This document shows, piece after piece, positions 24,654 through 32,079 of a stretch of 32,079 bases of DNA. Location of the stretch: IMG/VR virus record IMGVR_UViG_3300007234_000017, positions 1-32,079 of that record, one strand, 5' to 3'. A program made the position numbers and the translations under genes. This stretch comes from a virus. The notes below the pieces were generated by a model that saw nothing but the letters and a program-made list of their open reading frames with translations, did not search any database and was not told where the DNA came from. How positions within the stretch are numbered: the stretch's first letter is position 1; each line of letters starts with the position of its first letter.

Positions 24654-24836
24654 CTCTTACCCTCCGTTTTCCAACCTCTAAAAGATGCAAGTGTAGTAAG
24701 TGTGCGCAGCGCCGATTGCCCTTCTATTTCAATGTCTAACCAAACACACTTTGCGACTGACAAATACGTATTCGAAAGTGTGCGCACACACTTCAAAGTG
24801 TACGGCCGTACACTTTGAAGGATGAAAAGTGTGCGC
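24613..24836. promoter_or_regulatory. AAGTGT repeat block, candidate replication origin
   Basis: Nine copies of AAGTGT or its complement lie at 24613, 24689, 24698, 24746, 24776, 24788, 24796, 24810 and 24827. Three read AAGTGTGCGC in full (24698, 24776, 24827). Two copies form a perfect inverted pair with a 4-base centre (24776-24793). The stretch is clearly AT-richer than its surroundings. It directly follows the helicase gene and lacks coding potential, as iteron-type origins do. Confidence 0.6.
24791..24820. repeat. Perfect 30-bp palindrome inside the repeat block
   Basis: The 30 bases are identical to their reverse complement, with GGCC at the centre and TTTGAAG at the end. It contains two of the AAGTGT repeats in inverted orientation. 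A cruciform, a dimer-binding site or a transcript hairpin for the end of the helicase mRNA are all possible. Confidence 0.85.
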
Positions 24837-27570: not shown

Positions 27571-27974
27571 CCCCGCCGCGAGAGCTCGAGCTCGCGCTCG
27601 AGAGCGGCGAGCGCGGCGTCGGTCAAGCGGACCGTCACCGGCGGAAAGAGCTCGTCGGACCGCGCCGGCCCGGACCGCGCCTCGCCGAGCTCGACCGTCC
27701 CGTCCTGGTGGAACGTCAAAGGACGCCACCGCTCGAAAAGGACGCGCCGGGAGCCGGCAGGCTCGCCGGCGCGTTCAGTTTCCAGGGAGGAGACGCGAGC
27801 GCGACAGGCGCCCGCCTCGGCGACGGGGAGTGCTCCCGCCGGCGAGCTCGTGCCGACCTGGCGCGCGGCCGGGTCGGGAAACAGTCGGTCGAGCCGGAGC
27901 TCGAGAGCGGCCTCGGCCTCGGCGAGATAGGCGAGAGCGCGGTCGAGCTCGAGGAGGACCAGGCCGGAGGTCAC
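27567..27974 (-). CDS. Hypothetical protein, 135 aa
   Basis: The gene starts with a GTG that overlaps the upstream stop (GTGA, 27971-27974) and overlaps the primase start in the same way, so it lies in a fully coupled chain. The N-terminal half is a leucine-rich helix (LVLLELDRALAYLAEAEAAL), the middle carries Pro/Ala-rich linkers, and a strand pair follows (LFERWRPLTFHQDGTVELGE). The C-terminal helix is charged (LTDAALAALERELELSRRG). No family is recognised. Position between a small membrane protein and the primase suggests an early or replication-accessory role. Confidence 0.65.
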   Translation of the reverse strand: MTSGLVLLELDRALAYLAEAEAALELRLDRLFPDPAARQVGTSSPAGALPVAEAGACRARVSSLETERAGEPAGSRRVLFERWRPLTFHQDGTVELGEARSGPARSDELFPPVTVRLTDAALAALERELELSRRG

Positions 27975-28168
27975 GAGAACCAGGCCCGGAATATGGCGAG
28001 CGCGGCGAGGACGACCGCCACGTCGCGCACGAACTCAATCGACACAAGCGCCAGGTAAGAGACAAGGACGCCGGCGGACCGAAGGTCCGCGCCCGCCTCG
28101 TCGGCGGTCAAACCCGGTCTCGGCCTCAGAATACGGCCGCGCGTCCGGCCGCCGCCTTCGTTTTCCAT
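27971..28168 (-). CDS. Small membrane protein, first gene of the leftward operon, 65 aa
   Basis: The ATG at 28168 is preceded by GGGAG with an 8-base spacer; a longer start at 28294 would put the operator and leader structure inside the gene. The N-terminal 30 residues are basic and polar (ENEGGGRTRGRILRPRPGLT). Two hydrophobic stretches follow (about 32-46, VLVSYLALVSIEF, and 50-64, VAVVLAALAIFRAWF), separated by a short charged turn. The function is unknown; early small membrane proteins in phages often act in superinfection exclusion or host takeover, but nothing here proves that. Its expression is likely set by the leader structure at 28192-28243. Confidence 0.6.
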   Translation of the reverse strand: MENEGGGRTRGRILRPRPGLTADEAGADLRSAGVLVSYLALVSIEFVRDVAVVLAALAIFRAWFS

Positions 28169-28191
28169 TTCACGAGCTCCCGCAAACTCGG

Positions 28192-28243
28192 TCCCGCTTG
28201 TGTGAAGGCGGCCGCCGACCAAGCGGGATAAGGTCGGCGGCCG
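28192..28243 (-). ncRNA. Leader RNA structure, candidate H-type pseudoknot
   Basis: On the minus strand a perfect 12-bp stem (28232-28243 with 28209-28220) has an 11-base loop. Eight loop bases plus the adjacent stem G (28220-28228) are complementary to 28192-28200 just downstream (TCCCGCTTG with CAAGCGGGA). Loop lengths of 3 and 8 bases allow an H-type fold. The 3' end lies about 11 bases before the ribosome binding site of the first leftward gene. There is no T-run, so it is not a standard terminator. Confidence 0.55.
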
Positions 28244-28270
28244 GGTCACAACGCCCGGAGAAGGCGTATT

Positions 28271-28291
28271 GTGTGGTTCGTCGAACCACAC
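28271..28291. promoter_or_regulatory. Operator palindrome in the divergent control region
   Basis: GTGTGGTTCG and CGAACCACAC flank a single central T, a perfect inverted repeat with 10-base arms. It lies just downstream of the candidate leftward -10 box and upstream of the HTH regulator gene, where a repressor would block both promoters. Confidence 0.75.
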
Positions 28292-28298
28292 CACAAGA

Positions 28299-28328
28299 TG
28301 TAGACCTGTTTCGTCGACCTTGTGTCAA
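28299..28328 (-). promoter_or_regulatory. Candidate sigma70 promoter for the leftward operon
   Basis: On the minus strand a perfect TTGACA (28323-28328) is separated by 18 bases from TCTACA (28299-28304). Transcription would begin near 28292, at the edge of the operator palindrome, and the leader would contain the pseudoknot candidate. Confidence 0.55.
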
Positions 28329-28398
28329 TGTTTGTTTTTACATACTCTCCCTGGTGCGCGATGCGGGTCGCGGCGGTCACAACCTCGGAGCACGACCA

Positions 28399-28902
28399 AT
28401 GACACTCGACGACTATCTCGACAAAGCGAAGGCCCGGCAGAACCTTCAGTCGGACCGCGAGCTATCCACTCGGCTTGGCGCCGTAGCGACACACGTAAAT
28501 CAATATCGACGGTTCAATTCCCTGCCGTCGGTCGAACGGATGATTAGGATTGCCGAGCTCGCCGGCGAGCCGGTCGAGGTCGCCGTGATGGACTTGCTTA
28601 TCTGGAAAAGCCCGGAGGACAGCCCGGCGACCCTTCAGGTCCTTACCCGGATGCGCGCCGCGATGGTAAAAATGTTCCGCGCCGCCGCTCCCGCCCTCGC
28701 CGTCCTGGCGGCCGTCCTGGTCGGGTTTTCGAGCATCGACGCCAAGGCGCTCGAGCTCGGCCGGACCCTCGAGCGGGCGGTCGCGGCGGAACGCCAGGCG
28801 AACAGCCCGGCCCGGCACGCTCCCGGACTGTATATTATGGGAAATATCCGGCGGGTCCTGGCGGCGCTTTTCATGCCGCAGGCCGCCGGAAACCCGGCGT
28901 GA
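28399..28902 (+). CDS. HTH regulator with C-terminal membrane segment (DUF3693-like), 167 aa
   Basis: The ATG at 28399 has GGAG with an 8-base spacer; a longer start at 28198 is rejected because it would cover the operator. Residues 1-67 are a Cro/C1-type HTH like DUF3693 proteins (LDDYLDKAKARQNLQSDREL, then STRLGAVATHVNQYRRFNSL with the recognition helix). Residues about 95-112 form a hydrophobic segment (AAAPALAVLAAVLVGFSS), and near the end lies LYIMGNIRRVLAALF. DUF3693 proteins with a C-terminal membrane segment are best known in filamentous phages and some tailed phages. It is the first gene of the rightward arm and faces the operator at 28271, so it is the likely repressor or Cro-like switch. 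Confidence 0.7.
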   Translation: MTLDDYLDKAKARQNLQSDRELSTRLGAVATHVNQYRRFNSLPSVERMIRIAELAGEPVEVAVMDLLIWKSPEDSPATLQVLTRMRAAMVKMFRAAAPALAVLAAVLVGFSSIDAKALELGRTLERAVAAERQANSPARHAPGLYIMGNIRRVLAALFMPQAAGNPA

Positions 28903-28973
28903 AGAGCAACCATTAACCTCAATGGTTAATGCCTTCAAAAGACTCAATTTCCGTAAATAACACTGGTTGCTCT
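28903..28973. promoter_or_regulatory. AT-rich dyads between the regulator and the second rightward gene
   Basis: CATTAACC (28911-28918) and GGTTAATG (28924-28931) form a perfect dyad. AGAGCAACCA (28903-28912) is repeated inverted as TGGTTGCTCT (28964-28973). The 209-base gap to the next start at 29112 is AT-richer than the rest at its left end. An operator or promoter for the second half of the arm is likely; no clear -35/-10 pair is seen. Confidence 0.5.
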
Positions 28974-29111
28974 GGTATGCAGACCATTCCATTCTTGCGG
29001 CTCCGGACGCCGCGAAACAGCCGCAAACCGACCGCCCGGAGCCTCCTCGGCGGCCGGCGCTTTTCTTCCGAGCCCGGCGCCTCCTCGATAATTGAGCCCG
29101 GAGCGCCGGCG

Positions 29112-30324: not shown

Positions 30325-30823
30325 ATTGAGGTCCGAATTTCACGAGCTCGGCGCCGCAATCCGCGACCTTTCGCACGTCGAGCGGCCGGTCGGCGCGGTC
30401 CCAACCCGAGTTAGCCGTCTCGTCGAGGTCGTCGGGAAGGTTATCCAGGTCGTCGAGGCCGAGCTCGCCGAGACCCGCGCCCGCGTCGCCGTCCTCGAGG
30501 GTCGCGCGAGCACCGGAGAGGCCGCGACCGTGCTCGCATTGTCTAGTGTCGTAACGCGCCCGACGATCACGCCGGAGAGCCGCGCCGGCGGCCTGCCGGT
30601 CAACCCGGATCACGCCGAGCTCGAGGCGTTCGCCCGGCTCCTCGCCCTCCGGCGGCCGTTCGCCCTCGAGATCGGTCTCGACCGGTTCCAATGCTCGCCC
30701 GTGAACTTGCTGCCGGTCACGCCGACCGGCGACGACGCCGGCCCGGCGTTCCACGCCCGGAGCCTCGCCGAGGCCGTCGACGCTTACGGCGCATGGGCGA
30801 ACACCGGGAAGGCCGCCGAGTGA
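30317..30823 (+). CDS. Hypothetical protein with central coiled coil, 168 aa
   Basis: The start ATG lies within the end of the preceding gene (8-base overlap). The first 70 residues are helical and amphipathic (FHELGAAIRDLSHVERPVGA, then VSRLVEVVGKVIQVVEAELA and ETRARVAVLEGRA), suggesting oligomerisation by a coiled coil. The second half contains LEAFARLLALRRPFALEIGL, then FQCSPVNLLPVTPTGDDAGP and a terminal helix. No family is recognised. Its last 31 bases lie in the first copy of the 55-bp tandem duplication, so its stop codon and the start of the next gene are both present twice in the sequence. Confidence 0.6.
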   Translation: MLKLRSEFHELGAAIRDLSHVERPVGAVPTRVSRLVEVVGKVIQVVEAELAETRARVAVLEGRASTGEAATVLALSSVVTRPTITPESRAGGLPVNPDHAELEAFARLLALRRPFALEIGLDRFQCSPVNLLPVTPTGDDAGPAFHARSLAEAVDAYGAWANTGKAAE

Positions 30824-30909
30824 TGCGGCTCGAGATCCTCGACCGCGATGGGCGAACACCGGGAAGGCCGCCGAGTGATGCGGCTCGAGATCCTCGACCG
30901 CGATGGGCG
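30793..30909. repeat. Exact 55-bp tandem duplication across a gene junction
   Basis: The unit 30793-30847 is repeated without any difference at 30848-30902, followed by the first seven bases again. It contains the stop of the upstream gene, the TGATG junction and the start of the next gene. Because 55 is not a multiple of three, the two copies of the start read in different frames. Confidence 0.9.
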
Positions 30910-31069: not shown

Positions 31070-32079
31070 CGACCCCCCGAAAACCCCCCGAAAATCCCCC
31101 GAAAACCGAAAACCCCGCCAGTAACACCTTGGAAAATCACGGGTCGACGGTCGTAAACCTTCACGAGGCCCGGCACACTTTCCGGCTTCCCATGCTCCGG
31201 CCCGGCCTCGCCGCTTTGCAATCCTACCTGGCCGAGATCGACCGCCCGCCGTCGGTTGCGGGCGATGCGCTACACGTCACGGCCCGGCGCGCCGCGACGG
31301 TCATGTTCGATATTGCCGCGAACCACGCGGCGAGCTCGGCCGACGACCTGGCCGACCTCGGCGACGACGTGGTCGAGCTCGCGCTCGAGACCCTCCGGCT
31401 CGCGAACGCTATCGACGGCCTCGACCTCGAGGCCGCGCTCGAGCGCCGGGTCTATCTCGAGGCCGAAGTCGCCCGCGCCGAAGGACGGCGGCCGCCGGCG
31501 CCCGATTGGCTCGCCGAGGAGGCCGAGCCCGAGGCGCCCGAGCCGAAGCCGGAGGAGCCGCCGGCGGTCGAGCGGCGCGCGTATCTGGTCGAGGGTCTGG
31601 CGCTCGAGCTCCTCCGCTCGCTCGCGCCGGCGCCGCATGGCAAAGCGCGCGCGCCCATGACCGAGGCCGAGCTCGCGGTCCTCGACCAGCTCGAGGCGCT
31701 CGGCCTGGTGGCGAGGTTCCGCGAGGACCGCGACGACCGCGAGCTCTCCGGGCGGACGCATTACGGGGAGGCGTTTCTCGAGACCCTCGACGCTATCGCC
31801 CGGATCGACCCGGCGCCGGTATCGCCCCGCCGGGTCGGCGGTCTCGCCGTCCACATGCTGCGCCAGGTCGCCGGGTTTGGCGCGGACGGATATCCGCGCC
31901 GGCTCCTCGAGGGAAACCGCTTAGAGGCGGTCGTCGCTCTATTCGAGCTCGGCCTCGTCGCGACGCACGAGGAGCGCCGCACGGCCGGCGACGCGGTCGA
32001 CCCGCGCCGGTTCCGCGTCACCGGCGCCGGGCGGGAGTTTCTGGCGCTCTTGCATCACATGGAAACCCACGGCCGCACG
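31066..32079 (+). CDS. Unknown protein with two winged-helix-like C-terminal units (runs across the junction), 347 aa in full
   Basis: The ATG overlaps the upstream stop and the frame stays open to the right end, then continues at 71-100. The N-terminus is a Pro/Lys/Glu-rich stretch encoded by an 11-bp tandem repeat. Residues about 45-150 are helical (VMFDIAANHAASSADDLADL, LDLEAALERRVYLEAEVARA), followed by a Pro/Glu-rich linker. Two similar units close the protein: ELAVLDQLEALGLVARFRED...GRTHYGEAFLETL and RLEAVVALFELGLVATHEER...RFRVTGAGREFLALL. Each has the 'helix, L-x2-LGLV, beta-turn, TxxGxxFL' order of winged-helix domains. DNA binding is possible. I recognise no family. Confidence 0.7.
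   Translation, partial: MTTPRKPPENPPKTENPASNTLENHGSTVVNLHEARHTFRLPMLRPGLAALQSYLAEIDRPPSVAGDALHVTARRAATVMFDIAANHAASSADDLADLGDDVVELALETLRLANAIDGLDLEAALERRVYLEAEVARAEGRRPPAPDWLAEEAEPEAPEPKPEEPPAVERRAYLVEGLALELLRSLAPAPHGKARAPMTEAELAVLDQLEALGLVARFREDRDDRELSGRTHYGEAFLETLDAIARIDPAPVSPRRVGGLAVHMLRQVAGFGADGYPRRLLEGNRLEAVVALFELGLVATHEERRTAGDAVDPRRFRVTGAGREFLALLHHMETHGRT
31073..31112. repeat. 11-bp tandem repeat at the start of a gene
   Basis: CCCCCCGAAAA occurs at 31073-31083 and 31084-31094, then with one change at 31095-31105, and as a partial CCGAAAA at 31106-31112. It starts seven bases after the A of the start codon. Gain or loss of one unit would shift the reading frame. Confidence 0.85.
32010..32079. 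repeat. Terminal direct repeat, right copy
   Basis: Identical over 70 bases to 1-70; it defines the overlap by which the window closes to a circle. Confidence 0.95.

Follow-up and report, generated by a model that had tools for sequence, protein, structure and literature searches.

The leader of the leftward early operon carries a 52-nt element on the minus strand (28192-28243) whose geometry fits an H-type pseudoknot, the formation of which is predicted from complementarity. Coordinates refer to the window, that is, the whole 32,079-nt stretch of the IMG/VR record IMGVR_UViG_3300007234_000017. The reading that we prefer, at a probability of roughly 0.38, is that of a bistable structured 5'-UTR element, known from a single sequence, that may tune translation initiation of the first early gene. 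It is favoured because of the complementarity within the element, its rarity against chance, its position in a non-coding leader and the near-equal computed energies of its states. The features of the locus are compiled in Table 1.

Table 1 Features of the leftward leader and its surroundings (coordinates of the window)
Feature	Position	Strand	Description
First leftward gene	27971..28168	minus	ATG 28168; 65 aa with a hydrophobic C-terminal half; coding log-odds of +0.23 per codon
Codons 4-8	28145..28158	minus	AAGG CGGCGGCCGG; can pair with the S1 5' arm (28244-28230) in an alternative fold
Small 7-bp hairpin	28173..28190	minus	takes in part of the Shine-Dalgarno sequence GGGAG
S2 3' strand	28192..28200	minus	CAAGCGGGA; complement of the loop
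L3	28201..28208	minus	CCTTCACA
S1 3' arm	28209..28220	minus	GGTCGGCGGCCG
11-nt loop	28221..28231	minus	TTATCCCGCTT; L1 = 28231-28229, S2 5' strand = 28228-28221
S1 5' arm	28232..28243	minus	CGGCCGCCGACC; perfect 12-bp inverted repeat with 28209-28220
Predicted hairpin	28251..28267	minus	ACGCCU-UCUCC-GGGCGU; upstream of S1
Six TTGTG/CACAA half-sites	28198..28382	alternating	28198 (+), 28247 (-), 28269 (+), 28292 (-), 28320 (+), 28378 (-)
Near-perfect palindrome	28269..28296	plus	TTGTGTGGTTCGTCGAACCACACcACAA; probable operator; hairpin in RNA too
Divergent regulator gene	28399..28902	plus	PHROG 638, transcriptional regulator, E 4e-12; coding log-odds +0.18

Re-reading of the minus strand reproduced the perfect 12-bp stem of the initial annotation with its exact coordinates. 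Its second observation, that eight loop bases and the next stem base match a 9-base stretch downstream, is likewise borne out, as these bases are perfectly complementary to 28200-28192. Read together with the stem base G28220, the loop segment TCCCGCTT gives the exact reverse complement of CAAGCGGGA, i.e. (C)AAGCGGGA, so that the complement comprises eight bases of the loop and nine when G28220 is counted. Two partitions of the element are possible. With 12 bp in S1 and 8 bp in S2, L1 has 3 nt, L3 has 9 nt and L2 is 0; with 11 bp in S1 and 9 bp in S2, L1 has 4 nt and L3 has 8 nt. By complementarity and geometry, 28192-28243 thus combines the features of an H-type pseudoknot: a pairing between loop and downstream sequence, two helices and short crossing loops. 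An L3 of 8-9 nt that spans 12 bp is tight, which counts against the pseudoknot. Between the element and the ATG at 28168 there are 23 nt.

Codon statistics served to assess the coding capacity of the leader; the model was trained on six large genes of the phage, and its scores are log-odds per codon. The region 28294-28169 scores as non-coding in all three frames (-0.33, -0.42 and -0.44 per codon). An in-frame N-terminal extension of the first gene to GTG 28294, in which the hairpin would be coding, was ruled out by its log-odds of -0.33 versus +0.23 for the gene itself. A 39-codon frame that runs from GTG 28289 to a TGA located 1-3 nt before the ATG has neither a Shine-Dalgarno sequence nor a coding signal. 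The location of the S1/S2 element in a non-coding leader is therefore supported by codon statistics. The Shine-Dalgarno sequence GGGAG (28181-28177) follows directly downstream of the element, 8 nt before the ATG. The unpaired probability of 28179-28173 is low with or without the pseudoknot. Upstream of the leader, a TTGACA at 28328-28323 (in minus-strand order) suggests the promoter of the leftward mRNA; no full sigma-70 consensus promoter scored on either strand. Of the earlier placement of the element between promoter/operator and ribosome binding site, the non-coding leader and the downstream Shine-Dalgarno sequence are supported; the promoter is suggested. The 65-aa product of the first gene has no Pfam match, the longer reading 27971-28294 has no PHROG match, and the 135-aa product of the second leftward gene has no match in Pfam or PHROGs. 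These two genes are followed by those of a CHC2/Toprim primase, a D5-like helicase, a terminase and a portal protein.

The arrangement is rare in shuffled as well as in real sequences. With thresholds of at least 9 bp for S1 and at least 8 bp for S2, dinucleotide shuffles of the whole window yielded an expectation of 0.033 such arrangements per window in a first run and 0.02 with tighter geometry, versus the one observed. When S1 was kept fixed and the loop and the downstream strand were shuffled, a complement of at least 8 bases arose in 0.145% of the trials. As a control, loci of related phages and prophages totalling 3.17 Mb returned one weaker case (S1 of at least 9 bp, S2 of at least 7 bp). 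With relaxed loops and the related phage and prophage DNA extended to 3.95 Mb, the search found a sole other locus with S1 of at least 11 bp, S2 of at least 8 bp and L2 = 0. The pseudoknot-like sequence of that locus appears to be within or next to a coding frame. Hairpins of at least 10 bp are enriched in the window, with 15 versus 2.9 in shuffles, and because of this excess S1 alone is less remarkable. The pseudoknot-capable arrangement as a whole is unlikely to have arisen by chance and is probably non-random.

The nested fold of 28300-28160 has a computed energy of -65.3 kcal/mol (z-score -4.25). The pseudoknotted leader reaches -68.3 kcal/mol, i.e. about 3 kcal/mol in favour of the knot, in a home-made H-type energy model that combines Turner stacks with an initiation penalty of 9 kcal/mol and contains neither coaxial stacking nor loop entropies. 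This advantage is gone at a penalty of 12 kcal/mol. Energies no better than those of shuffled sequences had been named beforehand as the outcome that would speak against the element; they are better, as none of 300 shuffles gains as much energy from a pseudoknot. The proposal that an H-type pseudoknot is possible is thus upheld by a workable geometry and by preference in the simple energy model. In the nested minimum-energy fold, UCACA of L3 is able to pair with UGUGA (28250-28246) and lengthens S1; the extended stem and the pseudoknot should therefore be mutually exclusive.

A further alternative, in which the 5' arm of S1 pairs with codons 4-8 of the first gene, appears when the transcript is extended into the coding region. 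The probability of S1 is 0.998 for a transcript ending at 28165, 0.0004 at 28140, 0.93 at 28100 and 0.02 at 28000. In the model, the balance between the S1 state and the codon-paired state is thus dependent on the transcript end, and from this loss and return of S1 the two states appear nearly isoenergetic. At 28140, where S1 is gone, S2 is computed as a plain nested hairpin with a probability of 0.97. When the coding stretch was shuffled, S1 was lost (probability of at most 0.1) in 4 of 300 cases for a 26-nt stretch and in 9 of 300 for a 46-nt stretch, which is modest evidence that the computed alternative is not accidental. On the other hand, words similar to GGTCGGCGGCCG occur 97 times at up to two mismatches in this genome of 70% GC, and because they are so common the pairing of the 5' arm with the codons may be incidental. 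The initial annotation had suggested that the element could switch if its downstream strand paired elsewhere. A switch as such receives some support; the alternative partner, codons 4-8, belongs to the 5' arm of the stem and not to the downstream strand.

Under the preferred reading of a bistable leader, the leftward early mRNA would be made from the upstream promoter. During transcription the 12-bp stem would form first, and the loop would then pair with 28200-28192 to give the H-type pseudoknot. If formed in the cell, this pseudoknot would end 10 nt before the Shine-Dalgarno sequence and leave the first codons free, presumably the ON state. In the putative OFF state, the 5' arm of S1 would pair with codons 4-8, at +11 to +24 counted from the A of the ATG, and the pairing between loop and downstream strand would be kept as an ordinary hairpin. 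This alternative helix would fall within the footprint of an initiating ribosome or at its margin, and an OFF state is inferred for this reason. The two states would then differ in translation, an effect that is perhaps passed on to the following genes through gene overlap; a protein, an antisense RNA or the ribosome might shift the balance between them. The Shine-Dalgarno sequence is partly paired in both states, and the pseudoknot therefore does not visibly free it. In its specific form, a phage riboregulator of a type unrelated to the T4 gene 32 operator, translatable with a co-transcriptional pseudoknot and off with the 5' arm on codons 4-8, the proposal is doubtful. If true, it would add a second, architecturally different phage leader pseudoknot that controls translation, a hint that such control is more common. 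It would also provide a compact RNA switch for testing; as it stands, one sequence has yielded a well-defined and cheaply testable candidate.

The main rival, at least for part of the inverted repeats, is a DNA operator region, in which the repeats would bind the divergent regulator or another DNA-binding protein at the early promoter and the RNA structure would be a by-product. TTGTG/CACAA half-sites occur six times with alternating orientation within 185 bp, versus a mean of 0.65 in local shuffles, none of 2000 of which reaches six; the cluster shows DNA-level signals in the region as well. Two of the half-sites frame the palindrome at 28269-28296, whose perfect core TTGTG-N-CACAA has one match in the window and none in 100 shuffles, and two others frame S1 on both sides (TTGTGA/TCACACAA). 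Together with the regulator-like gene that begins at 28399, the cluster and the palindrome probably represent a repressor operator region between divergent early genes, as predicted from sequence. The motif accounts for the palindrome and the flanks, but not for the GC-rich 12-bp arms or the complement of the loop. Moreover, TCCCGCTTG is no commoner in the window than expected by chance, GGTCGGCGGCCG-like words are spread through the GC-rich genome rather than concentrated at the element, and the suggested promoter is located well upstream of S1. As an explanation of the element, the operator is on balance unlikely. Somewhat less likely still is a plain leader hairpin that needs no pseudoknot, either because S1 with its UGUGA/UCACA extension protects the mRNA or slows it, or because S1 alternates with the S2 hairpin plus the helix of 5' arm and codons, so that S1 and S2 never occur together. 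Nested folds already give both helices as alternatives, S1 is extended in the minimum-energy structure, and most 5'-UTR hairpins need no pseudoknot. However, S1 and S2 are spatially compatible, and for a leader end at 28165 the simple model ranks the combined state lowest as long as the penalty stays below 12 kcal/mol.

Chance, by which a long stem and an eight-base complement would have arisen in a 70% GC genome without selection, is improbable. In its favour, the window is one among many searched by eye, the expectation is 0.02-0.03 per window, and long hairpins are abundant here; the combination of rarity with placement in a short leader argues against it. Very improbable is a role of the stem-loop in replication, as DNA or RNA; it could, for example, serve the CHC2 primase of the phage as a single-strand initiation or priming site. 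The genes of this primase and of the D5-like helicase are part of the same operon, and the primase gene starts about 0.5 kb downstream, but the surroundings of the element showed no array of repeated sites, and a hairpin that serves for priming does not require a complement of its loop.

The element was also compared with known RNA families. At the gathering score Rfam gave no match, and at E<=10 it gave only four sub-threshold sRNA matches (best E 0.14), in agreement with the earlier view that the element falls outside any known family. A stimulatory pseudoknot for -1 frameshifting, which calls for a slippery heptamer 5-9 nt upstream within a coding frame, was rejected, since the upstream GCGTTGTGACC contains no X XXY YYZ slippery heptamer and the region is non-coding. 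An intrinsic terminator or attenuator was dismissed as well: the T-run is absent after the stem, as noted initially, and there is no terminator-like site at the element. For the accompanying idea of antitermination control of the early operon, no evidence was found.

Among described systems, the gene 32 operator of T4, T2 and RB69 is similar in that an H-type pseudoknot is located at the 5' end of a phage mRNA, upstream of the Shine-Dalgarno sequence (PMC535899, PMC3014915). The T4 pseudoknot comprises about 28 nt, lies about 67 nt upstream of the AUG, is followed by an unstructured A+U-rich region of UUAAA repeats and regulates the gene of a single-strand-binding protein (PMC535899, PMC3014915). 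The element described here, in contrast, has 52 nt, a far longer S1, a GC-rich hairpinned downstream region and a gene for a 65-aa hydrophobic protein. Assignment to the T4 type was rejected, as this protein without Pfam match is not a single-strand-binding protein and CCGAGTTTGCGGGAGCTCGTGAA, which is located between pseudoknot and AUG and is partly hairpinned, does not consist of UUAAA repeats. Translation of repZ of the IncI-alpha plasmid ColIb-P9 depends on a pseudoknot upstream of the ribosome binding site (PMC8383071), a dependence like that proposed here for the ON state. For repA of IncB and IncL/M plasmids, pseudoknots upstream of the ribosome binding site are described in references listed in PMC10724649. 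Unlike the element here, these plasmid systems use antisense RNA and control a replication initiator, and membership in the IncI/IncB/IncL/M family was rejected for want of an Rfam match. Their rep pseudoknots are coupled to a translated leader peptide, whereas here a consensus scan, in itself weak evidence, found no antisense promoter and no leader peptide with a Shine-Dalgarno sequence was found. At the start of E. coli rpsO, a pseudoknot and an alternative hairpin fold are in equilibrium; this pseudoknot contains the ribosome binding site, and the protein encoded by the gene stabilises it. The rpsO (S15) operator is named as a pseudoknot in PMC3014915. It shares with the element the pair of pseudoknot and alternative fold at the start of a gene; the element differs in its location upstream of the Shine-Dalgarno sequence and is without a known RNA-binding protein. 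By analogy, it would work most like ColIb-P9 repZ and resembles T4 gene 32 in position, but it is a member of neither family.

Searches of the collections by DNA, protein, alignment or exact pattern found no other sequence that carries the leader. With megablast and blastn against phages and plasmids, the sole match was 40 nt in a Methylobacterium record, outside the element. None of the IMG/VR relatives found by primase, helicase, terminase, regulator or alignments has the leader, nor does any relative from a terminase-alignment search of genomes. Among 23 exact pattern matches to S2 in IMG/VR none has the 12-bp S1, and the pattern of loop plus closing base pairs has no match there. The closest terminase relative (100%) belongs to another contig of the same phage, which ends before the leader is reached, and the next (42%) is without a leader match. 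Other phages reach at most about 42% identity in the terminase and about 40% in the primase. Synechococcus phage MinM1 shares the gene order, with its leader, compared by eye, filled by unrelated sequence. Its early genes are arranged as primase, helicase-position gene, terminase and portal, as in the window, and the product of the helicase-position gene has no pairwise similarity to the helicase of the window.

Bases 1-70 and 32010-32079, the two ends of the window, are identical. The contig IMGVR_UViG_3300025630_000055 starts at position 31113, continues to the end of the window and contains the terminase region as well. The window has the appearance of a single phage genome of about 32.0 kb that was assembled completely and closed into a circle. 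A perfect tandem duplication (30793-30909), consisting of 2.1 copies of a 55-bp unit, lies where two small rightward reading frames meet; it may be recent or an assembly effect. A perfect 13-bp palindromic hairpin, CTTCAAAGTGTAC-GGCC-GTACACTTTGAAG, is located just after the helicase gene (24791-24820). At the end of the regulator gene, a low-GC island (28905-28990) contains a hairpin (CATTAACC..GGTTAATG) and the repeated GAGCAACC/GGTTGCTC; it is a possible terminator, attachment site or origin.
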